A DNA stretch of 64,000 bases from Terebella lapidaria (lineage: Eukaryota; Annelida; Polychaeta; Terebellida; Terebellidae), in NCBI GenBank assembly GCA_949152475.1, contig OX424566.1, positions 28,496,423 through 28,560,422 of the forward strand. The letters are read 5' to 3'. The notes under the pieces are model-generated. The model was not told the origin of the DNA. It saw only the letters and a program-made list of their open reading frames with translations, and did not search any database. Each line of letters starts with the position of its first letter. The first letter of the stretch is position 1. Shown piece by piece: positions 8,372-63,674 of the stretch. Made by a program: the position numbers and the translations under genes.

Positions 8372-9675
8372 ATGGGCCCTGTGAGCAAGTGGACGGGACT
8401 ACTCATTCTCACGGCCATCTCGTTCACTTCGGTCAGTGGGCGGCCTCGACTCGAGAAAAGCTGCCCCGTCAGTGATATACCTCTTCAGGAAAATTTTGAT
8501 CTGAACCGGGTGAGATATCAAACTCATACAATTACTGATATTACAAGTAATACAAATGTGGTTATGCGTTATGAAATCAATAATAATTATCAAAATTAAC
8601 CAGCATTAAATTTTGAAGGTCATTATTTGAAAAAAAATTAAAGCGGCACTCTCATAAAAAATGTTTTGTTTGCTTGAATGCGAGTGTAGGCCTATGGATA
8701 TATTTTTATGTGTACATGTATACTTTTTATGTGTATAAGTTGCAAAAATAGTACTTCTATGACTTATTTTGATTATCTCAAGAGAATTTGATTCCTTGAT
8801 CGTTATTTGCTTTGATGAAAGAGAAAACATTAAAATATTCGTTGATCGACAACTCCCAAGTTCCGTTCTGCAGTTTGCCGGGATTTGGTATGATATCGCC
8901 TATGTGGACGCAAGACGTCAAACGTCTAATTTGACGTCAGTCGTCAGTGCGTATGACGTCACTGACGGCGAGCTGATACACATTGAACGGGGCGGATACA
9001 GGTACATGTAATTGTAACAATATATGCCATAGATTAGACAATAAATTATGCGCTGGCATGACAACGGTTATAATTTTAATTCTGTAGGTATATTATAGTT
9101 TGAAACATCGATGTTTCCAGGAATGACCGATGCATTCCGCCCCAGACTACTACTGGTTGGCTGGACAGAGGGGCAAAAATACTCGTGGACACCATGGGCT
9201 TGAATGGAACAATAGAAAGAGGTAATTAATAGGCGCGTTTTTCAACCTGACCAAGTCTAGGCATTCTTTTGGTCAAGATGGTGGGTATATCTGGTATGTA
9301 ATGTGGCCAACAACTACATTGTTTAGGCCTAGGCCTAAGCCTACTAGGCCCAAGCCTACTAGGCCCTACCTTAATTGATCAATAGCCGGTAACACACAAA
9401 AAACAATTTTGAGCTAAATTAAAATAATTTAAATAGATCTATGCATTATATTCCAGTTTCCGTGATGGTTGTCTCCACGGACTACAGCCAGTACGCGCTT
9501 CTGTTCGCGTGTACTCACGTCGACAGCGACGGGCAGTGTCGTACAGGGGATGAGATTGTACACGTCATCAGCAGAACGCGTCACGTGACTAGTGACGTCA
9601 TGTACCACGTGGACTATCTCCTGATGGACAGGCTGTGTTTGCTGCCAGAAGATTTGAAATATATTACGCAAGATA
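8372..9675 (+). CDS. lipocalin domain 1 with signal peptide
   Basis: Exons are 8372-8509 (signal peptide and exon A, KSCPVSDIPLQENFDLNR), 8874-9001 (exon B, FAGIWYDIAYVDARR), 9121-9221 (exon C, RCIPP) and 9457-9675 (exon D, VVSTDYSQYALLFACTHV, SDGQC, VISRTR, RLCLLPEDL). The signal peptide is about 23 residues and shares its exon with the first Cys of the domain, so exon 1 equals an ordinary exon A whose upstream half was replaced by a secretion signal. The TDY motif and five cysteines are present here. The sixth Cys lies in the next mini-exon. The C-D intron holds a short GGCCTA/AGGCC palindromic run near 9325-9365. Confidence 0.88.
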
Positions 9676-12600
9676 GTACGTTATTATTTAATAATATTTT
9701 GGGTTCATCAACATTTAATCCTTCTGAGGATTTCCTTTAGGTGGCAATATATATATTGAAGATATATCTTTTTAAAATGTTCCTTTATGTCGCTAATTGG
9801 AGAAAATAATCTCCAATTAATTTGGTCAATGTTTAATTAACAGAATCGTGTGCCCCTGGTCTTGACAATGTCTTTACAGACACGGACATGATGGCAGGTA
9901 TAGATCTAGGAATTTATATTTGAGTATCGTGCAATTTAGACCCAAGATTTCGTATGTCATCATTCACTGGTATAATTTACTAGCATTTAACATAGAAACT
10001 TTCGCTTACTAGTATATTTCTTGCTCCAGATGAAGGAGTGACTGTGGCAAATGAGAAAGGTTAGTGCAAAAATGCTTGATATAGGCCTAGACCTGTGTTT
10101 TTTTCTGATCTTTGTTCGATTAATATTGAATGATGTTGAAAGTTGTCATCTATATTCTACACGCGGGTCCAAAACTGACAGGTTTTCTGTGTACCAGGTA
10201 AGTATATGATTTTTACGCGGGAAAACTGACCGCCGATTACCATGGTGATTGTAGGTGGCGCTGTATATTCCATGAGCTATGTACAGCGCTAGCACGCGGG
10301 ATTGTCAGGAACTATTTTCGCCTTAAAAAGTTATCAATTGAAAATTCAATAATGGCAAATGACCAGGCAGGGACAGGAAAACTCACGACAATATTACTTG
10401 ACAAAGTATTGATTGGACAAGGTCAACACAGTTGCATAAAATGAAACGATGTTCTCAGCATATTAAATGCGCGCGAAGCTCTTTTACGGCCGATAATCGG
10501 GAAAATGTCCTCATATTTTTTTTGGCGGGAAATTCACGATTCTGCATGTGTTGAGTGTTCCTACTGCCACTTTCTCGCACATTGGTAATATATCGGATCG
10601 ATCGTCCTTATGTATTGAATGCATTTTGAAGACAATTTCCATATTTGAGTGACCGATAAAAATATATTGTTGATGCATATTATTGAAATGTTTTATGCCT
10701 ATGTTTGATACATATGGTTGCCACTTCATGCTTGTTCCATATAGCGAAACTCAAACACAAGGCCATTTTCACCAGTACCTTAAGATGTACTGATGTATAG
10801 AACGGCCCCTTGAGGCAAAATGCATGGGGACAAAGATTATCTTTGTATTCTAAACATTGAAATCTGAGGTCATACTGTAAACCCCTTTAGTTTCGCGGCC
10901 GTTTAATTTCGCGTTCTCAGGATTTGGACATATTCGCGGCCGTTTAATTTCGCATTTTCTGTAACATGCATATTACTTGTATCGCATTACAGAGGTGTTT
11001 TCCAATAACATACTCACTACGCAACTCAACAATTGACAAAAAACTGACATGAACACAATGGTATCTTCATTATATCTTCATTTTATATCTGTTATATCTT
11101 TATTTTTTTTTACTTTAAAACATGAATTAAATACAAACAGTCCCAGTACAAAATAACTAAGTACATTTAAACTAGGAATTGTCTACTTGCTTCGTTATGT
11201 TAAATATACATAATTTGTTCTTCTGTTTTATACCACGCACATTGCAAAGTCAATTTCCGAATCAATAGCCAATTCCACCATGCTGATTGGGCTATTGACA
11301 TTCCAGGATGCTTAATATTAAATATTCGCGAATTGAAATGTGTGTGGCCAAAAAAATTCGCGTCCAGAAATTTTCGCGTTTTTGGTGAAAACGCGAAAAT
11401 CGCGAATATTAATGGCCGCGAAAAATTTACATTTAAACTAGGAATTGTCTACTTGCTTCGTTATGTTAAATATACATAATTTGTTCTTCTGTTTTATACC
11501 ACGCACATTGCAAAGTCAATTTCCGAATCAATAGCCAATTCCATCATGCTGATTGGGCTATTGACATTCCAGGATGCTTAATATTAAATATTCGCGAATT
11601 GAAATGTGTGTGGCCAAAAAAATTCGCGTCCAGAAATTTTCGCGTTTTTGGTGAAAACGCGAAAATCGCGAATATTAATGGCCGCGAAAAATTAAGGGGT
11701 TTACAGTAGTTCTATGGTGCATCTTCTAGTGACCTTGAACTTGACACTTATTAGATGACCTTTGAACAGTGGTCAGTGACATGTATCCAATGGGGAAAAG
11801 GAGTATTCTATAAGTTTGGTTTTAATGATTTATGAAAATGCATGGTATTCTGTTTGGGATTAATTCATTGATTGCATGTGACCTGACTTAACCTACCTTG
11901 GTCATGGAAGTTAATACAGAGAGTGCATGACACAATTTTCCCCCTAAATAATACATGATTTGTTTCTATTACATTCAGTCTGCCCGTTTTCTGGAATTCA
12001 GGAATACAGCGACTTTGACATTAACAAGGTTTGATGACAAAACTGCCTATGTTGCATCTGTGTCATATCTTAAATTAATATTTATGTACATATACATAAT
12101 AGTTTTCTGTGACTGATATTGCAGTACATGTGAATTTGAATATGATAGCCTAAACGGCTACACTTAACGTGTAATAACTTCAATTACCATCACAACTAAA
12201 TGAACTGGAACAGTACCTACTTAAATCATGAAAATGCTCATGTTAGAAATCCTAGTACTTGCATGTTTCTCCTCAGTTTGTGGGGGATTGGTACGTCTTG
12301 GCCTCCTACCACACAAATGGTACGGCTGTACACTCGGGACATTCAAACTTAGTTAGAGTCGGACCAGATGCAATTGACTCCTACTTCACGGGGGCAAGGT
12401 GTGTGACAAAATTATTGTACAGTGTTGGAAGAAAGATACTGGTGTATAAATGTGAAAGTTCAGAATGTGTATGACTGAAGACTTTAAAAATATTATCGAG
12501 AATCCATAGTTATTGTTATTTTGTGTGAAAAGTACAATATCTGTATCCAAATATTCATAATTTTGGTATCAAACAAAGTATTTGTGTAATATGCTTTTGG

Positions 12601-15600
12601 TCGATGAAGACATATTAATGATTGTTGTCACAGAACCACAGAGAGCTGTTTCCCAACTTTCAAAGGGACCTTTCGGAAATATGCCGATAGACCAGCGACT
12701 TTCTGGTTCAAATATTCACATATCGAAGGTAAAATTGTATGTACATGTAATCACATTATGCATGTAACAGAACTGAACTGTTTTTTAAAAATTGTGCAAA
12801 AATTTCATGAAAAATTGCTGATAGATCTGCGACTATTGAAAAGTGATGATTTTAGTAAAAAAAAAAAAACGTATTGTGTTCATTGTAGGTAGAAATTACT
12901 TGCTACATATTTCCACCTTTGGCAGGACAATTACGAATCGTACACATGACGAAGGACCGGCAGTTTATCCTGGTCACACACTGTGAGAACTTGGAGGATG
13001 ATGTTTGTGGGAAGATGATTGTAAATTTGAGTGGACGAGGGGTCGATCTCCCGGCGGATGTCATGGACGAGATAGCAGAACACCTCGATCAACTCTGTAT
13101 CACACCCGATCAGCTCGTCAGAGTGCCGCACGATGGTGTGTGTTGTTTGCCGCCGAAAAAAATGGTATCACTCAGTATCTTCATGGAATAGATTGCAGCA
13201 TATTGCTGTGCTTCTTGCAGAAATTTATATGGTACCGGTAGTCAAAACTACCATCCTGAATACTTTATCCATGTATGTGTATGTCATTGAATGAAACTAC
13301 TTCAGTTATCGACCTATTGTACATATTCAGGCCTATTTCAGCTCACATTTTTGTACTACTCTAGTGCAAGATCTATAAATTCGTTATTATTCCTAATTTG
13401 CTTGCAGTGTATTGTAAAGTGGAGTTGACTGAGACCGTTGACTGTAAGTTTGAAAACCTTCCTGCTCAAGCAGTTGTGGACTGGGATAAGGTAAGAAGTT
13501 TATGTTTTTTCATATGGGCTATGTATGGAAGGCGCGAAGCGACATTATGAGTTACGCTTTGCGAATTACAGTTTACAAGTTGCATTTTACGACTTATGAA
13601 TTTGAAAGCTACCTTACAAGTTACATTTCACGACTTACAACCTACGTTTTACGACTTACGTCTTATGAGTTATGTTTACTAATAGTTGTATCCCCGAACA
13701 AAATTTGGCAGATACTATGGAATTGCATCTGTCGTGCCGCCCCCGCACATATTTTCTTGTGAACTGGTTGCAAATCTGACCTGATTCTGATCAAATTTGA
13801 TAAGAACAGTGTGTCTTATGATGAGAGCACGACACCTATCTATGGCAACCAAATTCACCCATTGGTGAGACATGGCTACTTATCTCGAAGCTAATGATCT
13901 ACGTATGAAAGTATAGTCAATAAGTATATTCGTATAAATCATAACACGCTTGTTAATTTTCTTCTCGTGTGGCACCAAGATGTGCATTCTGGTTGCATTC
14001 GGTGCAACCACTGCCCAGAACTCTAAATTGTGTCACCAACAGCGAAACTAGTATTTCATTCTGTGATACAATAGTACGGCCGCAGGCTACACAATGAATC
14101 GTAAGTCGTAAAATACATGTCGTGTATTACATCATGCCGTACAATGAATAAAACTCGTAAGCGTAAAGCGTAACTCGTAACACGTAACTCATAAAACATA
14201 ACTCGTAAGACGTAATGTCGCTTCGCGCGTTCCATAGGCTATACAATGACTTTCAAATAGTGTGACCTAAACTCCTTGGTTGTTTCATGTTTTAAAATAT
14301 GTGTAATTATGCACTCAGTGGTCAGGAACCTGGTATGGTGCTGCCCGATCTCATCATGTTGAAAGCTGGACTCTCCAAGTTGAAAAATTGTCTGACAGTT
14401 TGCTAAACATAGACGGACTTCAAACTGTGTAAGTGTAAATATTTTCATCAAAAAATTCTCCCTGAGTTTGCATTTTTGGTAAATTTATGTGAACGTCATT
14501 TTGCTAGTTGGTTGGTTCACATTGGTTACTAGTAGTTTATGCCTTGTGGCGTATGATATTTGCAAAACTGCAATATTCTGAATATTTTAGGGACGGAGAA
14601 TGCAGAGAAGATTTCCTCGTCACTTTGCAAACTGATGGAACCAGTGGGAATGTACAAGTGTATCACGGAAAAACCACCGGTCTTTATTGAAATTCTTTTT
14701 GTGGTGATATGACTGACAAATATGTGGTTTCAGTTCCAGTAATATGAGCCAATATATGTTAATACAAAATCATTTCTGTATGGAATATCATGCCTATGAT
14801 GAATATTTATTTTAATGCAACATCCTCATGCGAAGCTAAATCTATGTGCTTCCAAATGTCGAAAATCATTGAATCACACTGAAATTTATGAATAAATAGA
14901 ATTACAATAAAAGTTCTAATTTATATTTTACATACAGCGCTAGGGAAGATTGTATACACGGACTATGACGTGACGGTTTACTACGAGTGTCAGAGACTGA
15001 GGGAGGATGGGGTCTGCAATGAGGGAAGTGGGTCCGTATCGATACTCAGTCGAACCCCAGGACACAAAGTCAACCGCTTCATGTACAACACCATGTTGGA
15101 GAGTTTGTGTGTGGATCCTGTGGAATTGCAGCCCACTTCGTCAGAGGGTTTGTGGGCAGTCCGATTTAAAAAATCTGGTCAATTGAGACAAAAAAAAATG
15201 ATTTGTAGGGGGTGGGGGGGGGGGATGGGGGGAGGAGGGGGAGGGTGGAATTAAATTATTCTGTACATATATTCACATAGGGCTCAATTTTATTGTTGTA
15301 AGTATATTTTAGGGTGGCTTGCCTGCACATTTTTCAATTAAATTTTACATTTAATATTTTTTTTCAGTTGTGTGTGAGATAAAACGGAAATGTAAAGTTG
15401 ACGACATTGATGTCGAAACACGACTGGACATGAACTCGGTACTCTTTAACATTTATTAGTCATTCAATATCACTCGTGGACAATGAAGATCATTTCTTGA
15501 ATAAGTTCTGCTGTGTTATGTAAATGTTATGAATTTTGGGATATTAATTATCATATAAATGTATATATATTTTGTAGTTTTTGGGCGAATGGCACACGAT

Positions 15601-33600: not shown

Positions 33601-34215
33601 ATGTGATGTAATTAACAAATAACAAAATCGTTGTTTACTGTATCATGGATTCAGAGCTAGTCATACAATATAACTGTTATTAAATGTGAAGTAGAACCAT
33701 TGGAACGATATTAGCATTGGTCAGTCAAAAAGGAGAAAAAATATCCTGGAAACAAATTGCACACGGCACATTATTGGTGAGGTGCGGGATGGGCGAATGT
33801 CTGCTTACACAGCCGTGAGAACTTTTGGAATTGACATACCACTGTGCTGAATGATCAGTTCAAGCAATCTGAACTAAATAATTTATTATAAATAAATTAA
33901 TATAGGCCTACAATGTAGATGACATATATTTTTGAAATATCAATGGATATGCAGGCACCTATTGGTATAGAGTATCTGCCTCATTTAGGGTGCTTTCATA
34001 GGAAAATTAGGCCTATGTTAACTCATCATTTACACCAAAGCAGTCAGTTAATACGATATTTGATGAAAATATTCGCACAGACAAATTAAAATTACATCAT
34101 TGAAATTGCCAAGGAAACTTGCGAAATTGATGTCTCTCAGTCTCCGATCATTTTTGAGGTATACAAACCAACGCAGGACTGTGACACCGCTTTGTGTCTC
34201 TTGCCGATTTGATGG

Positions 34216-34250
<35 letters not shown>

Positions 34251-58200: not shown

Positions 58201-61200
58201 TGTTGAAGCAAAATGTATTGCATAATTTACAACTATGTATAGCTGCATCTCTCTATTTACAGCAATAGTTAAGATCCTGCATCTCTGCCAGCAGTACATC
58301 GTGTTTTACGAGTGTAGCGGTGTGAATCCTGATGGAACCTGTCCGCTGAACCTAGCGAACATCTTGGTTGGCAGTCGGGATCCTGGGGAAATCCCAGAGT
58401 CGGAGAAACCCATGATTCACGAGGCTGTGCAGGAAGCTTGTGTGGAGGTCGCAGATCTTGTGCCAACTGATCATTCCAGTGCGAACAAACTTATGTTTTC
58501 CCTTCAGTGTGACAAACAACGGATTGTGTGTGATCCACAGTGAGACATAGATGATAAAATGAATTTGAAGCCAATTTTAAGAAGCAAATTATCTATTGGT
58601 TTTCTTTCAAATTACTTGTGTCAGCATAAGGACAATAGCCGTAATACATAACCACATATACACATAATAAATACATAATACATAGAAAAGGATGATTATT
58701 TTCCCAGCGGAGTGCTCCTCTCCGATTCCCCTGGAGTTGGACTGTGATCCAGGAGAGCTGCCCATGCAAGAAGAGTTTAATCTTAGCAAGGTACCTGGCA
58801 ACAAGCTTGTCATGTCTCAAATTGGACATTCATGACCATGGTAGAATTCAAATAAATTTGGCAAAAATTCCACAGGAATGCAACAGGTTAACTCAAACTG
58901 CATCAGATTTGGGATGGAGTCTCATCATAATTCCAACCCGATTAAACCATGTATTCAAAGTCATCCATTGACAGATTTGCATTGTATTATATTTTGAGTC
59001 ATGATAGAAACACTAATATTCCACAGTGTCATGTAGTCTTGATATAAAAATATCTCATGTTCTGCAGATGACAGGTTCGTGGTATGCAGCTGCCAAACTG
59101 AAGTCGACACACACCCAGGAATCCATGGCGATTTATTTGAGAGAACACAGTCGATACTTCGACCCACACGGCAACGAATGGGAAAAGTACGCACACGATG
59201 AAAGACGTAGATGGCATCAGCAATATAGAAGATACGATCCACATGGTCGCTATGGTGATACTGGTTACCTTGGCAACGAGTCTCGTGAAAGTTCACACTC
59301 TAGCAAGTCGAGTTCAGGGTCAGAGTCAAGTAATGAAAATAATCAAGGACATGGGTCTTATAATAGCTCCCAAGAAGATAGTTACCAAAGTGGCTCGCAT
59401 GAGGCACATGGAGACCAACATGTGCTTGGTTACCATAGTAACCATGCACACAAAGGCTGGAGTGACGAAACATCAGTACATCTCTCAGTTACCGGTTCAC
59501 GGTGAGTAGTCAGGTTGATACACTTATCATTCTAAAAACGATATGATAATATAAAAATCATGTGTTGTTTGTATTTTCATGTATACCGTTATATTCTTTG
59601 TCATAGAGTTGATAGTTTAGAGTTGAGTGAGACACATTTTTTTCAAGTTCAACTGCCAGAGTTTAAAAAGTTTAACATTTTAATATGACAAGGAAATATT
59701 TGTGCATGTCATAGTTTAAAAGGAAGAGATAAAGAAATATTAATAACACCGTGTTCAAGGGATATGTATAATCCTGAAGGTTGACACAGTGTTTTGAGGA
59801 GGCCTTGGAGGGTCATGTTTTGAGTGGACAGAACGGCAGAACCGCCAAACTTGTCATCCAGTATCAAAATTTCACTTGTAAGTCTCACTCTGGTGGCTAT
59901 TTATGCTCCACTTTCAAAAACTATCCAATCCCAAGTTCTTCTTAGGACTTGTTCAAATATTTCTTCAAATACATGAATAATTGTGAAAAACAAGCTGATT
60001 GCTTCAACACACATGAACATAAGAGCGTAATAACCTAAGGATGATAAGATGACACCCAACTCTCCTTATACATATAACTTCTCCCCATGTATACAGTTGG
60101 CAATCTTTTCCCATTATATTGCAGCCAATGCCCGAGTGCTATACACAGACTATACGGATATCTCACTGGTGCACCACTGTTACCGAGTAACGCCACATGG
60201 GGAGTGCATTCCTGGTCACTCAACGGTCATCCTCTACACACGAGACCAGGAGATTACAGGGGCGAGAATAGCGGAGAAAACCGCGACTGCTCTCCGGAAC
60301 AGAGGAGAACAGTCGTGTCTGCTTCAGGAACATTTTGTACCCATTGAAAAAACAGGTGAGTAGTGATAGGTGCATCAAAAGTTTATGAGTAAAGTTTGAT
60401 ACACATACGAAAAAATGGCTCTCCATTGTGTCAAGCCAAAAAAATTGGGGAAAGCAAACTACTGTAGTGACAATTTGGGTCGATTTTTTCAGTTGATAGG
60501 TGCCCGTTTGAGGAGCAAGTTCCAACTCAATGTAAACTACACAACTTGCCTGCGGTGCCGAACTTTGACATCAGGAAGGTATTAAACCTTCAATTTTATG
60601 CTTGGCCACTGTCTATAACCAGTTTTCAATAACATAAACATCATGAAAATAACAAATAAAAAGTTAGAATCTGACATCTTTTTAGTTAATTTGAATTTGT
60701 ACTGAGTTGAATATTGTATACATGACCTGTGTCGTACAGTTCCTGGGCCGTTGGTACGCGGTATACAGAAGCACACACGGCGTGGGTCGCTGGCTCTCCA
60801 TGACTCTTGAGTTCGAGCAAAGTCCTACCGGAGACTACATGGCCTATTACACAGGCTCCACAAGGTTTGGCATGTAAATAAGATTTAAAAAAAAGACATG
60901 AATCAATCCTAGATGGGAAAATTTTCTTGAAAAAAAATCCAATTTAAAAATATTCTGCTGATATTTGGAATATGACAAGTTTGAATCATATAGTATACTG
61001 TTTGCATATTATTTATGTTATTAAACCTTTTCTATTCTCAGTGAAGGAAAATGTACGAAGACCATGGCAATGAGACTGACGCTGTCAACAAATGGCCGAA
61101 GTTACTGGAGAGGGACAAGTACCAGTACTGGAGGTGGTGTGATTGAAATACAGTGGTCCCTTGTAAAATAAGACCCTTAGAAATCGACTTCTCAGACCAA

Positions 61201-63674
61201 TTTAGCATGTAGCTGAACTTTTTTTTCTTTGCAAAAAGGTAAATCAGATGGATATCATGTATTATGAGCACAAGGTAAATTAATTAACTTGTAGAACAAT
61301 GCATAATACCGGTAAGTGCTGCTAGTTTTTACACGCTGTCTTTTCTGTTAATTTCCCTCAGAGGAGACGATCACACGCGTGATGTACACAGACTACCGAT
61401 ACGCAGTGATGTACAAGTGTTTCGGTGGCGTGCGGGCGGACGGTTCCTGTGACCCTGAACACGCGTACGTCGACATCATGAGCCGTCAGAAGTATGCACC
61501 ACCATCTGACGTCATGGATACTCTCAGAGATGTTGTCCGACATGCTTGCTACAACAATGGAGACTTCATACCTGTTAGACCTGAAGGTAGCAATTCCATA
61601 ATGAAAGTTTGAAAAATTTGTGACAAATAAGATAAATTCATTCAAATTAAAGATTGTACAATTTTTATGGTCAAAATTAAAGTCTCCCCCAAATATTATT
61701 CAGGTAGATCTATTACATCGAATGAAATGTACAAATGTGTGTAAAAATTTCATCAGCCATGTGTTGCTTACAAAATAAAGCATATATGTTTTTGTTTTTC
61801 CGAATCTTATTTTAATTTCACTAACATTACATATATCCATGGTATCTGCAGACACCTGTGAGGTGGCACATATGGTCAGTCGAAGCTGCCCGCTATCTCA
61901 GATGCCGGTCGTGTTGAACTTTGACCTGGACAGATTCGCAGGCACCTGGTATTCCTTCGCCCAGTTTGGTGGTTCATCGAATCTCAACTCAGTCACATTG
62001 AACATTCAGATAAATAGCGATGGGCAGCTTGAAGTAATCCGAAGGGGCTCAAGGCAAGTGTCAATATATGTAATCTAAAGAAAGGCTGAAGCCTGGATCT
62101 TTGACAAACAACTTGTGATTTAAGAATCTAATTTTTAAACATTAATTGTGAATAATATGGAAATTATTCGTGAAAGTCAAAAATTAATAAATTTGGAATA
62201 GTTCACAATTCAATCAAACAACAAGGTGTCACACAATATGTACAACATGTCATTAAAAACATAAGCAATTTATTTTCCTTCAATATGCTAGAGCTGACCA
62301 GTGCCTCACTCCAGTCACACACAAGCTGCTGTCCAGCAACGATCGTCAAACAGCGGACTTTGAAGCCCAAGGCACAAATTTCAACGGTAAAAAGAACCGG
62401 ATAATGGGTTATTGGTGAAGAGAACATTGTCAACTTCACTATGAGGGAGTTAACCAACAGTGCAATAATTTGAGTTATCGTGAAAATTTGCCTGAATCAT
62501 ATCTCCGGCCTCTTAGTGAGAAAAGACATAATTTCAAAATTCAGTAGTCTGAAAATCACATAAAAATGTTGAATAGCAGAAAAAAAGTAGAACAATTTCT
62601 AACAATATCCATTCAAATCTATTCTAATTATGATATCTTCACAGTTCACGTTCGTGTTTTGTACACGGATTACGACGTGGCGCTAGTCGCCATGTGTTCA
62701 CTGGAGCGTAACGATGGTGAATGCCAGACTGGTCATGGTTCAGTGATCATGTACACACGTGGTGGGTCGATTTCTGACTCGGCTAAAATGCAGATGTTCC
62801 GGACAGCCAACCAGGCATGCCTCTCGGAACGAGACTTTGTGCCGATGAAATCTGGTGGTGAGAAAACAATTTCATCCGAGTTCTACTTCGACTTTATTTT
62901 TTCGTTCTCATGGCACTAAAATATTTTACTTCTACAGTGAGCTGTCAGGCTAGGAGGGTTTACTGTCCATTAGAATCCTTACCTACACCAAAGAAATTTG
63001 ACATTAGCAAGGTGGTTCTCAATTCATTTGTGGAAGCTTTCTAACAATAAAACTAAAGAAAAATTACTTCATTTTATAATGGTTTCTTCATCAGTTTTAG
63101 ATAAGATCTTATCTTTGAATATAATGAAATGAATTAAAGTAGAAAACTTATCAGATTTAATGAAATAACTTTAAATCATGCAGTTTTCCGGGACTTGGTA
63201 TAACGTTGCCCGCATGCGTAATACTGGTGACTGGGACGCTGTGACCTTGAGAATATACCTAGGAGATAATCACATGTTCATGGCTGCGATCACTGGCTCA
63301 AAGTATGTTGGAAGTATTCACGTATTCTACTGACAGAATGAACCCAACAGAATGAGTACTAAGTATATATCAAATATATGTCGGCTAACATGATTACATT
63401 GTGTTCCTAGTAATCAATTTCTCAGTCAGATCTAAAATTTAAAAATGACTCACTAAATTATTGACGAGTGATAACTAGATCTAGGTTAATAGACATGGAA
63501 CTGATGCCAAGGATAAAGCATAGTTCCGAGCAAGAAAAAACAATCCAATCTTAGAACTTCAAAAACCAACTCGTTACAGGAATGGAGCTTGCATGGACAC
63601 ATTCATTACACATATGATTCGTTATGCTGGGGGAAACGAAGCAGATCTGTATTTTGTCCAGGACAAGAGAATTC
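8372..63674 (+). CDS. giant secreted polylipocalin, 26 RBP4-type domains (3' end beyond window)
   Basis: This is one gene assembled by hand from 102 exons, 13,417 coding nt. It begins with an ATG in good context (purine at -3, G at +4) and a signal peptide (MGPVSKWTGLLILTAISFTS). Lipocalin domains of about 164-176 residues follow, each matching vertebrate retinol-binding protein: x-C-x-V-x-x-(I/L)-P, NFD, G-x-W-Y, a mid-domain Cys, (V/Y)-T-D-Y, YxC..DGxC, a conserved Arg strand, and a helix with Cys. The standard unit is exons A (50-89 nt), B (usually 119 or 122 nt), C (80-101 nt) and D (usually 210, 213 or 216 nt). Introns lie in phases 0 (A-B), 2 (B-C), 1 (C-D) and 1 (D-A). All junctions stay in frame and I found no stop codon. 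It is presumably a secreted multivalent small-lipid carrier, but the ligand is unknown. The last exon in the window is exon C of domain 26. Individual splice sites are predictions. Confidence 0.92.
9844..10059 (+). CDS. two mini-exons, linker between domains 1 and 2
   Basis: Exon 9844-9897 (54 nt) encodes SCAPGLDNVFTDTDMMA and supplies the last Cys of domain 1. Exon 10030-10059 (30 nt) encodes about ten residues (DEGVTVANEK). Both are symmetric phase 1-1 exons with good AG and GT borders, so either can be skipped without a frame change. Nothing similar separates any other pair of domains, where one exon A supplies both flanking cysteines. The linker is acidic and probably flexible. The very small second exon is the least certain part of the model. 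Confidence 0.65.
10875..11706. mobile_element. MITE with TA target duplication and internal tandem dimer
   Basis: It starts CTGTAAACCCC and ends GGGGTTTACAG, flanked by TA on both sides (10873-10874 and 11707-11708), as expected for a Tc1/mariner-type non-autonomous element. Words such as TTCGCGGCC and TTTAATTTCGCG extend the inverted repeats. A 266-bp segment (11163-11428) is repeated almost perfectly at 11429-11694, including inner 3'-TIR sequence, so this copy is a partial dimer. There is no coding capacity. It lies in the intron before domain 2. The preceding intron part (10060-10874) shows nothing I recognise. Confidence 0.8.
11979..13135 (+). CDS. lipocalin domain 2
   Basis: Exons are A 11979-12028, B 12277-12398, C 12634-12728 and D 12926-13135. 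Exon A is the shortest of all (50 nt) and carries a single Cys (VCPFSGIQEYSDFDINK) because the preceding Cys is in the mini-exon linker. B reads FVGDWYVLASYH and C reads RTTESCFPTF. D has lost the TDY motif (IVHMTKDRQFILVTHC), and DGxC is reduced to DDVC. The helix Cys is kept (DQLCITPDQL). Confidence 0.88.
13408..15147 (+). CDS. lipocalin domain 3
   Basis: Exons are A 13408-13490 (VYCKVEL then VDCKFENLP), B 14319-14428 (WSGTWYGAARSH), C 14591-14679 (DGECREDF) and D 14938-15147 (KIVYTDYDVTVYYEC, EDGVC, SILSRTPG, ESLCVDPVEL). B is 110 nt, shorter than the common 119 nt, so one or two inter-strand turns are trimmed. The donor after exon C (G|GTCTTT) is weak compared with the others. The A-B intron carries a fold-back MITE. 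Confidence 0.88.
13515..14238. mobile_element. fold-back MITE in domain 3 A-B intron
   Basis: The left end has GGCGCGAAGCGACATTATGA. The right end has TAATGTCGCTTCGCGCG, then TTCCATAGGCTAT, its reverse complement with small changes. Both arms are built from short alternating words (TTACGACTTAC, AACTCGTAA), giving long inverted arms around a unique centre. No open frame of note is present. Exact ends and target duplication are not clear. Confidence 0.7.
15368..16329 (+). CDS. lipocalin domain 4
   Basis: Exons are A 15368-15438 (VVCEIKRKCKVDDIDVETR), B 15578-15696 (FLGEWHTIIIEKR), C 15826-15920 (NGVCSETKRR) and D 16114-16329 (KVVYQVAAYALIYFC, SDGMC, LACLREQDV). The aromatic after G-x-W is His instead of Tyr and the TDY motif is replaced by QVA, so this is one of the more diverged copies. 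All six cysteines are retained. An unusual WARERIS segment occupies the position of the conserved Arg strand. Confidence 0.88.
16401..17773 (-). mobile_element. non-autonomous pogo/Tigger element with transposase remnant
   Basis: The element is 1373 bp, bounded by CAGTAGATCCTGTG and its inverse CACAGGATCTACTG and flanked by TA on both sides. The inner TIR carries repeated GTGGTCTTAAATG words. On the minus strand 16779-16474 encodes about 90 residues resembling the N-terminal helix-turn-helix part of Tigger transposases (RKRKCLTLQDRVKVI, GRKIAEAMNVGKTQIQNI, then VWEWF). The frame then runs into the TIR, and the DDE catalytic domain is absent. The element lies in the intron before domain 5, only 36 nt from the exon A border, so it supplies most of that intron. 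The remainder (about 16,790-17,570) shows nothing else recognisable. Confidence 0.85.
17810..19667 (+). CDS. lipocalin domain 5 (helix Cys missing)
   Basis: Exons are A 17810-17889 (TCDLEMTPYLLKMSDLSIKE), B 18036-18154 (MLGQWYEHASSR), C 19233-19321 (KNGVCFTPVRMH) and D 19455-19667 (HVLYNNDDAMVSFLC, EDGTC, SVFGRSEK). The second Cys of exon A, normally the first of this domain, is absent (YLLKMSDLS). The helix Cys is also absent (VEKVGINPNN in place of xxxC-x-x). In RBP4 these two cysteines pair (C4-C160), so both partners of one disulfide have been lost together. The B-C intron begins with the splice-site minisatellite. Confidence 0.87.
18124..19062 (+). repeat. 32-33-bp minisatellite built from an exon end plus its 5' splice site
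   Basis: The unit is ATTGTCATAGTGGGCGGAGC followed by TAAGTAAGCCTTG. The first copy is the real 3' end of exon B of domain 5 (coding ATTGTCACAGTGGGCGGAGC then TAA, donor GTAAGC at 18155). About 28 further copies follow in the intron, each carrying the same GCTAA|GTAAG donor context. Units beginning CACAGGGG also resemble 3' splice sites. Use of any downstream donor would extend exon B through an in-frame TAA in the GCT-AAG-TAA frame. Reverse-strand frames with TIKAYLAPPT-like repeats are simply this array read backwards. Confidence 0.92.
19868..21129 (+). CDS. lipocalin domain 6
   Basis: Exons are A 19868-19947 (VSCDLDITYSECQMDSMP), B 20090-20208 (FTGVWYPTHTTNN), C 20480-20571 (LGHCLPTSR) and D 20896-21129 (RIAYTDHEHALVYEC, KDGRC, KDMCIDEDV). 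Exon D is 234 nt, longer than the usual 210-216, because the normal donor position (ACA|G) reads GGCGGG rather than GT and the next usable GT is at 21130. The result is a seven-residue extension (GITTSLG) of the inter-domain linker. Confidence 0.86.
21369..22640 (+). CDS. lipocalin domain 7
   Basis: Exons are A 21369-21445 (GECGVDPVRNCGIRYVPLQ), B 21629-21750 (LTGTWYALSTLEY), C 22078-22169 (SNCLAPREAV) and D 22428-22640 (RAVHTDYEHLLLYEC, KDGIC, TIFGRSPGEIP, TEICVKDREF). This is one of the copies closest to the consensus, with an intact TDY motif, DGxC and all six cysteines. SRDPNGLP in vertebrate RBP4 aligns with GRSPGEIP. Confidence 0.92.
22870..28028 (+). CDS. lipocalin domain 8
   Basis: Exons are A 22870-22946 (AVCDASQAETCRVDNIPTPEDF), B 23220-23338 (LTGYWTGVSYLKRG), C 23804-23895 (RHGECLAES) and D 27813-28028 (KVLYCDTATLVIYEC, VTGLC, RSSCVDTDQL). 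The G-x-W motif is followed by Thr rather than Tyr, TDY is CDT (an extra Cys), and DGxC is TGLC. The C-D intron is 3.9 kb and almost entirely repeats. Confidence 0.88.
23371..23676 (+). repeat. interspersed repeat, inverted partner at 29835-30142
   Basis: About 306 bp running from AACCCTATGCTAGCTGAGTT to AACTCCAGCCGGCA. It is present in the opposite orientation at 29835-30142 with scattered differences. Recognisable shared words are AGAGTCACC, GATATATCAC and ATGAACATTTCAATGACTTA. No terminal inverted repeats or coding capacity are obvious. The copy lies in the domain 8 B-C intron. Confidence 0.8.
23922..27636 (+). mobile_element. 3.7-kb GGCATTTCGGC-family repeat with internal tandem arrays
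   Basis: The 5' end is a hairpin, GGGCATTTCGGCACGAAATG, followed by CCCTTATGGTTTTG. The 3' end is GAAATGCCCCAAGGCATCTT followed by TAGGCCTTGA. Inside, 24,450-25,480 holds about seven units of about 130 bp (GCTTAGGAATCAATTGTGGA, GACCTTGAATTTGACC). 25,850-27,260 holds about nine units of about 145 bp (CACTTCCTGTTTGGCCGTAT, GACGACCCCTGGTG). Open frames in the second array are repeat products. Related copies lie at 57,219-58,124 and 63,722 to the edge. It starts 26 nt after the exon C donor of domain 8. Confidence 0.75.
28683..29719 (+). CDS. lipocalin domain 9
   Basis: Exons are A 28683-28756 (GCGFQGTEMCKPQLSQTT), B 28951-29072 (ISGAWVSLARWGRH), C 29179-29264 (IDGECQTPV) and D 29510-29719 (KLVYADNAHMMLYEC, VDGRC, LMVRQVAPLS, RNMCLDPTDF). 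Tyr after G-x-W is Val. Exon B is unusually rich in Arg and Gly. All six cysteines are present. The intron before it (28,029-28,682) shows no recognisable repeat. Confidence 0.9.
29835..30142 (-). repeat. interspersed repeat, inverted copy of 23371-23676
   Basis: Reverse-orientation partner of the repeat in the domain 8 B-C intron, here in the D9-A10 intron. It starts CTCTGCCGGCTGGAGTTGCA and ends GGGTAGCATAGGGTT. The divergence between the two is visible but modest. Confidence 0.8.
30282..31515 (+). CDS. lipocalin domain 10 (C-D intron lost)
   Basis: Exons are A 30282-30370 (VDCPLSPPQQPEITCGIEDVP), B 30866-30984 (FTGTWYTVVRLSG) and a fused C+D exon 31199-31515 (317 nt, RGACISVGRA, then KVMYNDGEHAMLYEC, VDGSC, SRSCFKGNEF). 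The frame runs through the usual C-D junction without a stop, so the phase 1 intron is missing here, precisely or nearly so. TDY is NDG. A fold-back MITE lies 12 nt into the A-B intron. Confidence 0.9.
30383..30602. mobile_element. fold-back MITE in domain 10 A-B intron
   Basis: The left arm reads GGAAGCCGGTGGGGACCTGA then GAATTGGGGATTGGG. The right arm ends CCCAATACCCAATTCCCATG then TCCCCCACCGGGTTTCC, its reverse complement with few changes. Each arm also holds GTAGTAAACCATGGTTTAAT, itself nearly palindromic. About 220 bp, with no coding capacity, able to form a long hairpin in the pre-mRNA. Confidence 0.75.
31630..32512 (+). CDS. lipocalin domain 11
   Basis: Exons are A 31630-31712 (ITCDRSLRPNEHCPLVDIPTQ), B 31827-31942 (VSGTWFHRFGLRDD), C 32070-32149 (KGGCAPTRTV) and D 32297-32512 (RIVHVDADFLVLYIC, DQDC, RATCPETGDF). 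B is 116 nt, three less than the usual. TDY is VDA and DGxC is QDC. An alternative reading of exon A upstream of 31630 is not needed to keep the frame. Confidence 0.88.
32705..35214 (+). CDS. lipocalin domain 12
   Basis: Exons are A 32705-32778 (ITCPLNKIGCPVSSLPVHEN), B 32923-33047 (FTGKWNGLAVLKDS), C 33203-33297 (RDGQCHDLLE) and D 35005-35214 (RVLYTDYEHLLLYFC, ENGAC, NTGCFTADDF). Exon A is very close to the RBP4 N-terminus (CPVSSLPVHENFD). Tyr after G-x-W is Asn. The C-D intron (1.7 kb) holds a candidate DNA transposon. Confidence 0.91.
33349..34831. mobile_element. candidate non-autonomous DNA transposon
   Basis: The left end carries CCTCTCTATATTTATGGTCC then GCTCTCGATTTATGGTCC. The right half carries GCGGACCATAAATCGAG (34,598) and ends GGACCATAAATAAAGAGAGG (about 34,812-34,831). 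These form inverted pairs, so the 1.5-kb interval behaves as a TIR element. Its interior includes the GT microsatellite at 34,210. No transposase frame is visible, and I could not find a convincing target duplication. Confidence 0.55.
34209..34262. repeat. (GT)n followed by a G-tract
   Basis: About 14 GT dinucleotides run directly into a G-run of about 17 (34,246-34,262), with a second G-run near 34,280-34,290. It lies deep in the domain 12 C-D intron. Confidence 0.95.
35398..36394 (+). CDS. lipocalin domain 13
   Basis: Exons are A 35398-35474 (VKCDLPARPPCNLDNLTQAT), B 35622-35740 (LLGVWYTVFARRDS), C 35860-35948 (IDGDCQSGQL) and D 36179-36394 (MTIQYLDDDFTLIHQC, DRTC, SDSCMDIGDL). TDY is LDD. 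The exon B acceptor used is TTTTAG|TTG. A nearby GCTAG would break the frame. The NFD block of exon A is changed to TDV. Confidence 0.88.
36627..37816 (+). CDS. lipocalin domain 14
   Basis: Exons are A 36627-36712 (AVCPPPSPPSPHCDVLEDLP), B 36981-37099 (LTGRWNAVYRLKSS), C 37325-37416 (RHGQCSPTV) and D 37601-37816 (FFLHIDEDNLLMVSC, DTSC, AHGCFSKDDF). The linker between the two Cys of exon A is proline-rich (PPPSPPSP), unlike its neighbours, and may hold the domains apart. Asn follows G-x-W, and TDY is IDE. Confidence 0.87.
37950..39052 (+). CDS. lipocalin domain 15
   Basis: Exons are A 37950-38023 (ETCHVVLPNICRVEDIHTQE), B 38193-38311 (FKGQWYGRYVLRGR), C 38497-38576 (HGHCHQSSSV) and D 38837-39052 (KIVYTDYTYAILYEC, PDGSC, RKLCVEFGDL). 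Exon C is one of the two shortest (80 nt), removing part of a loop. Motifs in exon D are near consensus. Confidence 0.91.
39331..40496 (+). CDS. lipocalin domain 16
   Basis: Exons are A 39331-39413 (ESCAIETSSAMACEAQDLPTQ), B 39722-39840 (FTGTWYALSALKGS), C 40017-40111 (REACLPPSEA) and D 40284-40496 (RVVYTDQLYTLLYMC, ADGKC, LVLGRTLSVP, DDACLEGDNF). The exon D acceptor follows a C-run of about 16 (from 40,260), an unusually pure polypyrimidine tract. All six cysteines are present. Confidence 0.91.
40696..48485 (+). CDS. lipocalin domain 17 (interrupted by nested transposons)
   Basis: Exons are A 40696-40778 (VHCEIPQAVQVPCRTHNLPVQNN), B 40906-41024 (FLGTWYSTYRLVRS), C 41298-41389 (EDVCQPTMTA) and D 48270-48485 (RILRTNYKYAIVHSC, DDGSC, KKACFQVGDL). 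The C-D intron is 6.9 kb because a piggyBac-like element holding a Copia element is inserted just after the donor. Removing 41,399-47,950 and one TTAA leaves an intron of about 325 nt, similar to others in the gene. Confidence 0.9.
43341..43587 (+). repeat. Copia 5' LTR
   Basis: 247 bp with TG...CA ends. It contains the probable start codon of the polyprotein at 43561, so the first nine residues (MAQQQGNST) are encoded by the LTR itself. The LTR ends exactly at a codon boundary. Confidence 0.95.
43561..47523 (+). CDS. Copia Gag-Pol polyprotein
   Basis: The frame has 1320 codons counting from the ATG at 43561. It stays open upstream to 43537, but without an ATG. Order of parts: Gag with two CX2CX4HX4C knuckles (CYSCGKFGHKSYEC near residue 230, CENCKSSTHDTRYC near 260); protease with DCGATTH near 310; integrase with an HHCC-type finger (HWHRILGH ... 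CDTC) and DDE residues in HCDLAGP, LRTDNGTEF and NGTAERSW; reverse transcriptase with QMDVSTAYLNA, LYGLKQ and the catalytic box VWVDDII; and RNase H with CDSDWGG, STCEAEY, VDNQGAI and LADVFTKPV. No stop or frameshift interrupts it, and Gag and Pol are in one frame as in copia-type elements. The RT box is WVDD rather than the common YVDD. It could be active, but this was not tested. Confidence 0.95.
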   Translation: MAQQQGNSTGYGPRQRLMFDGDSARYELWEVKFLGYMHLQKLRDVIAPANVDADAPDAGKNSDAFAELIQCLDDRSLSLIIRDAKDDGRKALKILREHYLGKGKPRIIALYTELTTLKMLDEESVTDYVIRAETAATSLKLAGETVSDSLLTAMVLKGLPAEYETFSAIVTQRDKEQTFTEFKVSLRNFEETEKYRRATSSSSQYEHSVMHVDGRLQQRRRQNEDVKVVCYSCGKFGHKSYECKEKSPKTVTPRRTRWCENCKSSTHDTRYCRKTDSAKSHNSQDEVTDDHNFAFRINSCNTVKRHGLLVDCGATTHIVNDKSKFLHFDNEFNPAGHVIELADGSRSNCAAGRGDAEVSLYDVTGKLHNVTLRNALYVPTYDQDIFSVQNAIDNGASVKFTPDCTNLRAPDGTLFYIEKDGRLYYLNSAVTGNTSSHTVEHWHRILGHCNVADVLKLENICDGMKITDTSRNVKFECDTCTLGKMSQYRNRDPDERALSPLEFVHCDLAGPVSPTAKDGFKYAICFIDDYTGAIFLYFLKAKSDTVEATKAFLSDAAPYGKVKRLRTDNGTEFMNKEFKSLLVENQICHETSAPYSPHQNGTAERSWRSLFDMARCLLLESNLPKSLWTYAVMCSVYVRNRCYNRRTGKTPYELLIGRKPNLSHMHVFGTICFSYVQNKSKLDARCEKGVFVGYDKRSPAYLVYFAASGNVRRVRCVKFSEKPVCDSGDVTGDDAYGDNEVKYEAAGRNENENVQNVPEVQNVDNEVDTRVQGRDRRRPQYLDDYVTKTSDENVTCSVNYVDYCYKAAPITYREAVSGSEQCKWQVAMEEEMKALCDNETYELTPLPEGHNLVGGKWVYALKVGPNGEERYKARYVAKGYSQVENVDHYETFSPTARFTSIRMLMQVAVQENMLIHQMDVSTAYLNAPVDCELYVEQPEGFVQGGANGEKLVCKLRKSLYGLKQSGRNWNNVLHSHLLDEKFEQSLVDPCVYSRIIGNSKTIVIVWVDDIIVAAKDETDVKAVKDSLCQRFKMKDLSVLSWFLGIEFKCMENCIIMTQTKYVTKLLQKYDMVDCRPKANPCELSANKLRMEDSTELDNPEIYRQIVGSLIYLMTATRPDISYVVNLLSQYMSKPTRAHLGVARHVLKYLKGTLNYGLKFERAQQLRLIGYCDSDWGGSEDRKSISGYGFQLCENGSLISWKSAKQQCVALSTCEAEYIAMSVAIQEAKFLTQLMIDLQVFETGVILYVDNQGAIALAKNPVYHKRSKHIDIKYHYIRLEVQKGTVELMYVPTEQNLADVFTKPVSRMKLNELCIMICYEI
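43588..43601 (+). other. Copia primer-binding site inside the coding frame
   Basis: GGTTATGGGCCCAG follows the LTR without a spacer. It matches the complement of the initiator tRNA-Met anticodon arm over 14 nt. It is translated as part of Gag (residues 10-14), so the primer site and the protein constrain each other. Confidence 0.85.
47553..47799 (+). repeat. Copia 3' LTR
   Basis: Identical by eye to the 5' LTR over 247 bp. It begins directly after the polypurine tract AAGTGGGGG (47544-47552). Confidence 0.95.
48629..50093 (+). CDS. lipocalin domain 18
   Basis: Exons are A 48629-48711 (VECDPSASFERDCTWKNLPVV), B 48891-49009 (FAGTWHTYAKLKGR), C 49359-49453 (REGQCMAPVS) and D 49881-50093 (RIAFTDYKTAVIATC, EDGRC, RGTCLDFDDI). 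His follows G-x-W. The C-D intron contains a hairpin MITE and the following D-A intron a 2.8-kb LTR element. Confidence 0.91.
49520..49725. mobile_element. hairpin MITE with 5-bp target duplication
   Basis: CACTGGGTGGGAGCTTGCCC at the left is the exact reverse complement of the right end GGGCAAGCTCCCACCCAGTG. The arms continue inward (GACGAGTCAACTCGGTAAAA with its inverse), leaving a short centre. AGTAT flanks both sides (49515-49519, 49726-49730). 206 bp, in the domain 18 C-D intron. Confidence 0.85.
50260..53070 (-). mobile_element. short LTR retrotransposon (non-autonomous), minus orientation
   Basis: Direct repeats of about 734 bp (50260-50993 and 52336-53069, offset 2076) look identical by eye and enclose about 1.34 kb. 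ATAATA occurs at both outer borders (50255-50260, 53070-53075), allowing a 5-bp target duplication of ATAAT or TAATA. On the minus strand, next to the right LTR, TTGGTGGAGCATCCGTTCGA resembles a primer site complementary to a tRNA 3' end (…GCTCCACCA). A short frame follows at 52025-51774 (NTRSQKTRETTVPVPEP…, about 83 residues), plausibly a Gag start, then a stop. No protease, RT or integrase is present. LTR termini are not TG...CA, so exact borders are uncertain. Confidence 0.7.
53195..54165 (+). CDS. lipocalin domain 19
   Basis: Exons are A 53195-53265 (DCAMTHVNCPVAQIPRQ), B 53385-53503 (FFGTWYLVARLRNT), C 53648-53739 (KGTCFPTGRV, then GSDGCDF) and D 53950-54165 (RVMYTDYTDSAVIFSC, DAPC, EGECFLRDDL). 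Exon C has an extra Cys (SDGC) in addition to the conserved one, giving seven in the domain. The exon C donor is AAAC|GTTTGT, weaker than average. Confidence 0.9.
54343..55324 (+). CDS. lipocalin domain 20
   Basis: Exons are A 54343-54425 (GECEIHQEGRQSCLIENLPAAKN), B 54532-54653 (VTGTWYAVVQLRSS), C 54839-54930 (RDGSCLSPMS) and D 55112-55324 (KVVFAGDKYLALYRC, DDSC, SQTCYMLGDF). TDY is replaced by AGD. All six cysteines are present. Confidence 0.9.
55523..56450 (+). CDS. lipocalin domain 21 (B-C intron lost)
   Basis: Exons are A 55523-55605 (VECQIVEPTWDNCAIYELPQHEN), a fused B+C exon 55790-56000 (211 nt, ILGTWYGVWYLSDT … WDGVCIPA) and D 56238-56450 (RIHWADRHTMVATRC, SDGTC, VAFGRTV, EGACVSVTDF). 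The usual phase 2 intron between B and C is absent and the frame passes straight through. TDY is WAD. The exon is rich in small residues around the missing junction. Confidence 0.9.
56604..58478 (+). CDS. lipocalin domain 22
   Basis: Exons are A 56604-56683 (VQCGMSFQQEECKVDNIPVQEEF), B 56858-56979 (MSGVWYSQYITQGW), C 57120-57208 (DRPCNVRN) and D 58263-58478 (KILHLCQQYIVFYEC, PDGTC, GSRDPGEIP, QEACVEVADL). The TDY position is LCQ, adding a seventh Cys. GSRDPGEIP is strikingly close to the SRDPNGLP loop of vertebrate RBP4. The C-D intron is mostly a GGCATTTCGGC-family repeat. Confidence 0.9.
57219..58124 (+). mobile_element. GGCATTTCGGC-family repeat, 0.9-kb copy
   Basis: Starts GAGGCATTTCGGCAGAAATG then CCTTTATGGTTTT. 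Ends GAAATGCCTCTAAGGCATCT then TTAGGCCTTGA. The interior carries degenerate tandem units with TTGACCTTGACCTTAAATTT and TCTCGGAAACGGTG. Same orientation and same intron class (after exon C) as the copy at 23,922. It begins only 11 nt after the domain 22 exon C donor. Confidence 0.8.
58708..60355 (+). CDS. lipocalin domain 23 with His/Ser/Gly-rich insert
   Basis: Exons are A 58708-58790 (TECSSPIPLELDCDPGELPMQEEF), B 59068-59501 (434 nt), C 59780-59877 (LTQCFEEALEG) and D 60125-60355 (RVLYTDYTDISLVHHC, HGEC, EQSCLLQEHF). Exon B starts normally (MTGSWYAAAKLKSTHTQESM), inserts about 100 hydrophilic residues rich in His, Ser, Gly, Tyr and Asn (RYDPHGRYGDTG, SHSSKSSSGSESS, HEAHGDQH), then returns to the usual strand end (VHLSVTGSR). 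The insert falls in the loop after the first strands, at the open end of the barrel. Exon C is predicted with acceptor CTGAAG|G, less typical than others. Exon D is 231 nt, 15 longer than usual, before the helix Cys. Confidence 0.87.
60493..61586 (+). CDS. lipocalin domain 24
   Basis: Exons are A 60493-60578 (DRCPFEEQVPTQCKLHNLPAV), B 60740-60864 (FLGRWYAVYRSTHG), C 61042-61133 (SEGKCTKTMA) and D 61362-61586 (RVMYTDYRYAVMYKC, ADGSC, RHACYNNGDF). B (125 nt) and D (225 nt) are both slightly long. All six cysteines are retained. Confidence 0.91.
61852..62857 (+). CDS. lipocalin domain 25 (A-B intron lost, GC donor)
   Basis: Exons are a fused A+B exon 61852-62053 (202 nt, DTCEVAHMVSRSCPLSQMPVVLNFDLDRFAGTW is split only in other domains; key parts SCPLSQMP and FAGTWYSFAQ), C 62292-62386 (ADQCLTPVTH) and D 62645-62857 (RVLYTDYDVALVAMC, NDGEC, NQACLSERDF). 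The phase 0 intron between A and B is absent. The donor after A+B is AG|GCAAGT, the classic GC-AG class consensus. GT alternatives nearby break the frame. Two in-phase donors compete after exon D (62854 or 62857). The better consensus is GTGAGA at 62858. Confidence 0.9.
62938..63674 (+). CDS. lipocalin domain 26, partial
   Basis: Exons are A 62938-63011 (VSCQARRVYCPLESLPTPKKF), B 63184-63302 (FSGTWYNVARMRNT) and C 63580-63674 (KNGACMDTFI … DKRI, donor C|GTACGC). Exon D is not in the window: the intron is entered by a GGCATTTCGGC-family repeat that continues to the right edge. The gene therefore extends beyond 64,000 by at least one exon. Confidence 0.88.

Follow-up and report, generated by a model that had tools for sequence, protein, structure and literature searches.

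The gene and its module structure

The window, by which we mean the whole stretch of 64,000 nucleotides of Terebella lapidaria DNA that was analysed (G000:C13:28496423-28560422), is DNA of the animal type with introns. On its forward strand, positions 8372-63674 are occupied by what was modelled as the first part of one large gene. The model of this part, obtained with a spliced-profile aligner, comprises 100 exons, 13,336 nt and 4,445 codons with 0 stops, and encodes one signal peptide followed by 26 RBP4-like lipocalin modules, of which 25 are complete and the last is cut short. When the downstream genome sequence was added, the full modelled gene extended over 105.4 kb (window coordinates 8372-113793; G000:C13 28504794-28610215) in 171 exons. 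The predicted protein has 7,601 residues (849.9 kDa), with 43 lipocalin domains (D1 to D43) followed by three antistasin-like repeats and a stop, and contains 19 N-glycosylation sequons. No internal stop was present across the 7,601 spliced codons; the frame ends at 113793, beyond the window, and an AATAAA is found at 114063. An initial sequence-only reading had proposed 102 exons and about 4,470 codons in a single open chain with 26 domains, still running at the window edge. The single chain was retained and the gene does continue past the edge, while the exon and codon counts gave way to those above and 26 domains proved to be a lower bound. Stop codons between domains, which that reading had named as evidence against itself, were absent from the modelled chain.

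Each module is encoded by four exons, A to D. In the consensus, exon A has two Cys followed by LP-x-NFD-x-K, exon B has F-x-G-T-W-Y, exon C has D-G-x-C and exon D has R-V-x-Y-T-D-Y...C...D-G-x-C...R...C. The intron phases follow a fixed cycle (A 1-0, B 0-2, C 2-1, D 1-1), which was not forced by the aligner but was used in some choices made by hand. Fused exons, which mark intron losses, were observed three times in the window (C10+D10, B21+C21 and A25+B25) and twice downstream (66314-66512 and 73184-73476).

All modules of the window lie on the forward strand. D1 (8372-9675; exons 8372-8509, 8874-9001, 9121-9221 and 9457-9675) starts with an ATG at 8372 followed by the hydrophobic stretch LLILTAISFTSV, so that the signal peptide and the first lipocalin domain share this module. 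It is followed by D2 (11979-13135), whose single leading Cys was assigned to two positions, C174 of D1 and C4 of D2, and by D3 (13408-15147) and D4 (15368-16329). An open frame at 16384-16749, outside the model, contains a PRL..FPVSDY stretch that recalls the first exon of the gene, which made it a candidate for the start of a second gene. D5 (17810-19667) is without C4 and C160, and its first exon (17810-17889) was picked by hand among candidates. The last donor of D6 (19868-21129) is ambiguous, being either GC at 21109 or GT at 21130. D7 (21369-22640) precedes D8 (22870-28028), which has a 3.9 kb intron with two satellite arrays. D9 (28683-29719) has a weak first exon, D10 (30282-31515) has its C and D exons fused (31199-31515), and D11 (31630-32512) is the last module before the putative seven-domain blocks described below.

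By its periodicity, D12 (32705-35214) would open the first of these blocks, which continues with D13 (35398-36394), D14 (36627-37816), D15 (37950-39052), D16 (39331-40496) and D17 (40696-48485), the last with a 6.9 kb intron (41390-48269) that holds a copia-type element, and would close with D18 (48629-50093). The second block would run from D19 (53195-54165) through D20 (54343-55324), D21 (55523-56450, with B and C fused at 55790-56000), D22 (56604-58478), D23 (58708-60355) and D24 (60493-61586) to D25 (61852-62857), which has fused A and B exons (61852-62053) and the only GC donor that the model uses. In D23, exon B (59068-59501) was merged by hand from the three pieces of the automatic model, and encodes a mid-domain insertion of 108 residues that is rich in His, Ser, Gly and Tyr and is without Cys. 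The first three exons of D26 (62938-63674) lie in the window and the fourth at 65954-66172, outside it.

Reliability of the gene model

To build the model, exon motifs from open frames were used as seeds for four small exon profiles, and a looping domain profile was then placed on the genomic DNA with introns allowed in any phase. The aligner penalises stops and requires AG acceptors and GT or GC donors; the open frame and the splice letters are therefore partly obtained by construction. As a control for the frame, the window exons were read in the two alternative frames, which hold 185 and 291 stops. The GC content by codon position was 0.546/0.422/0.521, compared with 0.364 in the introns. 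The aligner score on 8.3-64 kb was 2,336 nats, against 10.3 for the reverse complement of the window, 9.5 for the first 8.3 kb and 8.2-9.3 for four shuffles, although the window score is partly circular because the profile and seeds come from the window itself. The downstream extension, which used 80 kb of genome sequence past the window, is a better test. The stretch from 62.6 kb onward, of which the training set held only the last exon of D25 and the first three of D26, scored 1,265 nats compared with 7.6-10.4 for the nulls. The nulls that were scored with the 43-domain profile gave 7.6 for the 18.3 kb up to window position 8300, 9.5 for 114-144 kb and 10.4 for the reverse complement of 154 kb.

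Several exons were adjusted by hand. In the window, three stray exons of the automatic model were removed, one of them ahead of D2 and two ahead of D19; exon 1 was lengthened to its ATG and C26 was lengthened. The first exon of D5 was replaced, and some exon choices used the phase cycle as a criterion. Downstream, manual placement was used for B42, C42, C43 and the antistasin exons. The exons considered uncertain are the first of D2, D5 and D9, C22, B42, C42, a small exon at 107855-107887, C43 and that of antistasin repeat 2. Fourteen introns exceed 1 kb, the two longest (9.8 and 8.7 kb) being downstream at 75937-85686 and 92944-101684.

Similarity of the domains to RBP4-type lipocalins

The lipocalin signature motifs were inspected in all 43 domains. 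The G and W of the GxW motif (SCR1), which the sequence-only reading had noted in every domain of the window, are present in 43/43, and the SCR3 Arg is present in 42/43. The SCR2 motif is more variable, with an exact TDY in 16 domains and the Asp column retained in 32. The recurring cysteine pattern of RBP4 was also confirmed, as all six RBP4-type Cys positions are filled in 42 of the 43 domains, with one Cys shared by D1 and D2. The exception, D5, has lost C4 and C160 together, which is exactly one pair. When D5 is set aside, 21 of the 24 complete domains of the window have exactly six Cys and three have seven, with the D23 insertion excluded. The numbering and pairing of the RBP4 disulfides were taken to be C4-C160, C70-C174 and C120-C129, the last being presumably the one distinct to RBP4, and from the Cys positions three disulfides per domain are predicted. 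A third disulfide is named as a distinct feature of RBP4 in an excerpt of one report (PMC8420045).

A profile of 24 of the 26 window domains (the insertion-bearing D23 and the incomplete D26 were excluded) was searched against the PDB. In the best 60 of 193 matches, 17 retinol-binding protein sequences were on top (3e-16 to 4.7e-14), with AMBP next (7e-10). D30 alone matched the bilin-binding sandercyanin (3.7e-4) slightly ahead of RBP4 (9.1e-4). Single domains gave weak matches to Pfam, with PF08212 in 7/24 and PF00061 in 7/24 at E up to 0.1. The first member scored 24.1 bits for PF08212 against a cut-off of 24, or 23.8 with the signal peptide kept; of six domains scanned alone, none reached the cut-off and two had no match. 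A search of the protein collection with 24 domains gave 1,079 candidates, and no E value among them was 0.001 or lower. In the human RBP4 sequence, position c.111 is presumed to precede F-S-G-T-W immediately, and the A/B intron of the worm modules has the same placement. Intron 2 of RBP4 comes directly after c.111 (PMC3506607), in phase 0.

Proposed linkage of the modules into one chain

The distribution of Cys codons connects each module to the next. Exon D ends before the last Cys of its domain (C174), and the following A exon opens with that Cys in phase 1. Accordingly, 40 of the 42 later modules have two Cys within the first 30 residues of the first exon, being the last of the preceding domain and the first of their own. 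In the downstream fused exon 73184-73476, the last Cys of the preceding domain follows directly. The first exon of D1 has one Cys because there is no preceding domain. Two modules deviate: in D2 a single Cys has to do for both domains, and D5 has lost its own pair. Since the last Cys is encoded by the first exon of the next module, the modules are tied into one chain and, D2 apart, no internal module resembles a gene start. A gene boundary between window modules was considered and is disfavoured by the phase-1 donor that ends all 25 complete D exons of the window (GT in 24 and GC in one, where a GT 21 bases further along could be used instead).

A signal peptide, and hence secretion, is predicted from hydropathy and from reading of the sequence. 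A 19-residue hydropathy scan missed the signal peptide and was replaced by a 12-residue scan, in which the signal peptide scored 2.18 and was equalled at one other place, a barrel strand of D31. The gene model thus supports the proposal of one chain with one signal peptide and tandem RBP4-type lipocalin domains. The linkers between domains are 5-15 residues long. The protein contains no run of four basic residues, and no cleavage motif was found in the 40 linkers examined, both RX[KR]R motifs being inside domains. The short linkers without cleavage motifs argue for an intact string.

The end of the lipocalin array is marked by a different type of repeat. Domain 43 ends at 110466, and the next exon encodes its last Cys together with the first antistasin-like repeat. 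Repeats 1 and 3 matched PF02822 with E values of 5.5e-8 and 2.9e-7 (33.6 and 31.3 bits against a cut-off of 21.2), and repeat 2 was recognised by pattern only. A hydrophobic C-terminus resembling a GPI signal was not found by a crude hydropathy test, the best 12-residue segment in the last 45 residues scoring 1.08.

Periodicity of the array

Pairwise identity between domains ranged from 11 to 36% with a median of 21% (903 pairs, full gene), and recent tandem duplication was rejected on these values. Within the window, similarity showed no decay with distance (rho -0.09, p 0.11). In the full gene, similarity showed peaks for domains 7, 14 and 21 places apart (z 4.8, 3.8 and 2.7), and the observed mean for multiples of 7 was reached in 0 of 20,000 permutations. 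Of the periods 2-12, only 7 stood out (z 6.5, next 0.9). In the window alone the block period is weak, with p 0.015 for lag 7 and p 0.27 for the maximum over 17 lags. The per-domain values place the 7-period in D12-D39 (4 x 7), limits that were read off these values afterwards. All 28 values are positive, the low ones being D14 (0.02), D21 (0.05) and D35 (0.01); D2, outside the block region, has 0.19. Identity within the same class was 26.9% (42 pairs), compared with 22.4% between different classes in other blocks (252 pairs). Domains 12-39 resemble a block of seven domains present in four copies. The array probably grew through the copying of whole four-exon modules, always within the same phase frame, with D12-D39 arising by repeated duplication of the seven-domain block. 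Deeply divergent domains with near-constant cysteines, constant phases and an 11 + 4x7 + 4 layout would preserve in this gene the history of a giant repeat protein's growth.

Other lipocalin loci and neighbouring features

Elsewhere in the 761.6 Mb genome, Pfam Lipocalin was matched at two places, on C2 and on C11. From its translation, the C2 match reads like an FABP exon. The C11 match is a two-domain RBP4-like gene (G000:C11 20752136 to ~20762290), in which the D exon part of a domain matched RBP4 at 1.8e-15 with a query lacking the third exon. It shares with the giant gene the A-B-C-D exon phases and the supply of the last Cys from the next exon, here a candidate last exon (x-C and stop), and differs in having only two domains and its own signal peptide, with one Cys in the first exon. 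Both ends of this gene are hand-picked candidates.

On the reverse strand, 5393-6709, just upstream of the giant gene, is a one-exon beta-1,3-galactosyltransferase-like frame (PF01762, 1.1e-21), and 1412-2395, also reverse, is a reverse transcriptase frame (PF00078, 1.5e-10) that is probably a LINE remnant. The copia-type retroelement in the intron of D17 (43537-47523, forward strand) has one long frame with gag, integrase and reverse transcriptase, and flanking repeats are suggested by a short translated stretch that occurs at both 43353 and 47565. Mini- or macrosatellites were seen at 18132-19059, 24405-25451, 25884-27195 and 3071-4877, with units of ~33, 134, 147 and 36-40 bp, respectively; three of the four arrays sit in introns of the giant gene. 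Within one intron, 50481-50666 and 52557-52742 have an identical 62-residue translation, forming a direct repeat around ~2 kb that is possibly another mobile element.

In the wider assembly, contig sizes (28-101 Mb for C1, C2, C11, C13 and C17, and 28 kb for C18) suggest 17 chromosomes. The mitochondrial contig C438 (15,973 bp), with genes named from their translations, has the order nd4L-nd4-(gap, rRNAs presumed)-nd1-nd3-nd2-cox1-cox2-cox3-nd6-cob-atp6-nd5, which we take to be the annelid ground pattern and which points to an annelid. atp8 was absent among its frames of 90 residues or more, and a TA-rich simple repeat at ~4190-4605, between atp6 and nd5, is the likely control region.

Proposed function and alternative explanations

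The locus is probably one gene for a giant secreted, multivalent chain of RBP4-type lipocalins, for which the best-fitting role is that of a carrier or sink for hydrophobic small molecules. If the predicted exons are spliced as modelled, the product would consist of a signal peptide, 43 RBP4-type lipocalin domains and three antistasin-like repeats, with no clear membrane anchor. Each domain would fold as a small barrel with three disulfides, the last Cys coming from the first exon of the next module. The resulting rigid, disulfide-held string of pockets could gather hydrophobic small molecules outside cells, candidate ligands being a pigment, a retinoid, a fatty acid, haem or a dietary lipophile, by analogy with polycalin and chlorophyllide in the moth midgut. 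For the antistasin-like tail, a role as a protease inhibitor that guards the chain is possible.

A division of the array into two or more adjacent multi-domain genes, split inside a long intron, appears unlikely. Such a split could be accommodated by the 14 introns of more than 1 kb, some of which hold satellites or the retroelement, and the C11 gene, with its own signal peptide and candidate terminal exon, indicates that such ends occur in the same genome. A further point is D2, which follows a 2.3 kb intron (9676-11978) and has a one-Cys first exon like that of D1, but in the model this exon is without a signal peptide. True first exons, as in D1 and the two-domain gene, combine a signal peptide with one Cys, whereas the modules after the introns 75937-85686, 92944-101684 and 50094-53194 open with the extra Cys in phase 1. 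The only other segment as hydrophobic as the signal peptide lies in the D31 barrel. Decay of the array into a pseudogene, to which the retroelement and satellites in the introns might point, is scarcely credible given 7,601 codons that can be spliced without a stop, the many stops in the other frames of the window exons, and the raised GC content of the codon positions relative to the introns.

An intact chain is assumed above, and the layout of small carrier-fold repeats behind one signal peptide is also that of the nematode polyprotein allergens. Cutting of the protein after secretion into carriers of one or a few domains is nevertheless improbable, considering that the linkers lack basic cleavage motifs and that the domains, at 11-36% identity, are unlike repeats that multiply a dose. 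It is rather less doubtful that the protein is mainly structural, in mucus, tube or cuticle, with the barrels serving as beads and ligand binding being secondary. This possibility, still well short of an even chance, is favoured by the size, the secretion, the His/Ser/Tyr-rich insertion of 108 residues in D23 and the Cys-rich antistasin-like tail. On the other hand, few spare Cys are available for cross-links in the window domains, the sequences are diverse, and low complexity is confined to the D23 insertion.

Starting from the secreted carrier or sink, a more far-reaching scenario can be put forward tentatively. Annelids, independently of moths, may have invented the largest known lipocalin polymer, a secreted sponge with 43 RBP4-type pockets. 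Its working unit would be the seven-domain block with seven pocket types, present four times, which would hold several ligand specificities in a fixed stoichiometry beside protease-inhibitor repeats. With a gene of this kind, it would become testable whether many pockets on one chain bind many different ligands.

Comparison with known systems

RBP4-type barrels are best known from vertebrates. The worm domains are similar to RBP4 in that it is their best PDB match, their six Cys occur in RBP4 order and the A/B intron is apparently placed like its intron 2. RBP4 differs in being a single domain, and in the alignment the worm domains have a shorter segment ahead of the TDY strand.

The nematode polyprotein allergens consist of tandem lipid-binding units behind one signal peptide, have another fold and are cut at basic sites. 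The tandem arrangement behind one signal peptide is shared with the worm protein, but the fold differs and basic cleavage sites are missing from its 40 linkers. The analogy to these allergens drawn in the sequence-only reading thus fails on processing.

The closest parallel is polycalin, also known as pentadecacalin, chlorophyllide-binding protein or P252. The following comparison is with its published descriptions. In Lepidoptera, polycalin has many lipocalin-like domains in one protein; that of the moth Plutella has 15 lipocalin-like structures encoded by at least 49 exons (PMC10145054). Polycalin is described as a midgut binder of chlorophyllide A (PMC11762215), and a signal peptide and a GPI site were reported for the Spodoptera protein of 1,113 residues (PMC5220377). 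Judged by title or the start of the abstract, 28 of the 29 papers listed for polycalin deal with insects, pests or insecticidal proteins, and the remaining one is a review of legume lectins. No annelid tandem lipocalin was found among the literature matches listed, which does not prove its absence from print; a leech lipocalin is the subject of one paper (PMC6476756). The supposition of the sequence-only reading that no such polymer had been described was wrong, and since polycalin has been described, the kind is already known.

The worm gene shares with polycalin the tandem lipocalin-like domains in one multi-exon gene. It differs in having 43 domains compared with the 15 described, in the RBP4-type six-Cys domains and antistasin-like tail, in its end without a GPI-like hydrophobic stretch as opposed to the GPI site reported in Spodoptera, and in belonging to an annelid instead of a moth. 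Relative to the literature found, its new features are the size of the protein, its RBP4-type domains, the block of seven domains, the antistasin-like tail and the occurrence in this phylum. By this analogy the worm protein is most likely of the polycalin kind, on a much larger scale. If true, the known range of tandem lipocalin chains would grow from 15 domains to 43 and would take in annelids as well as insects.
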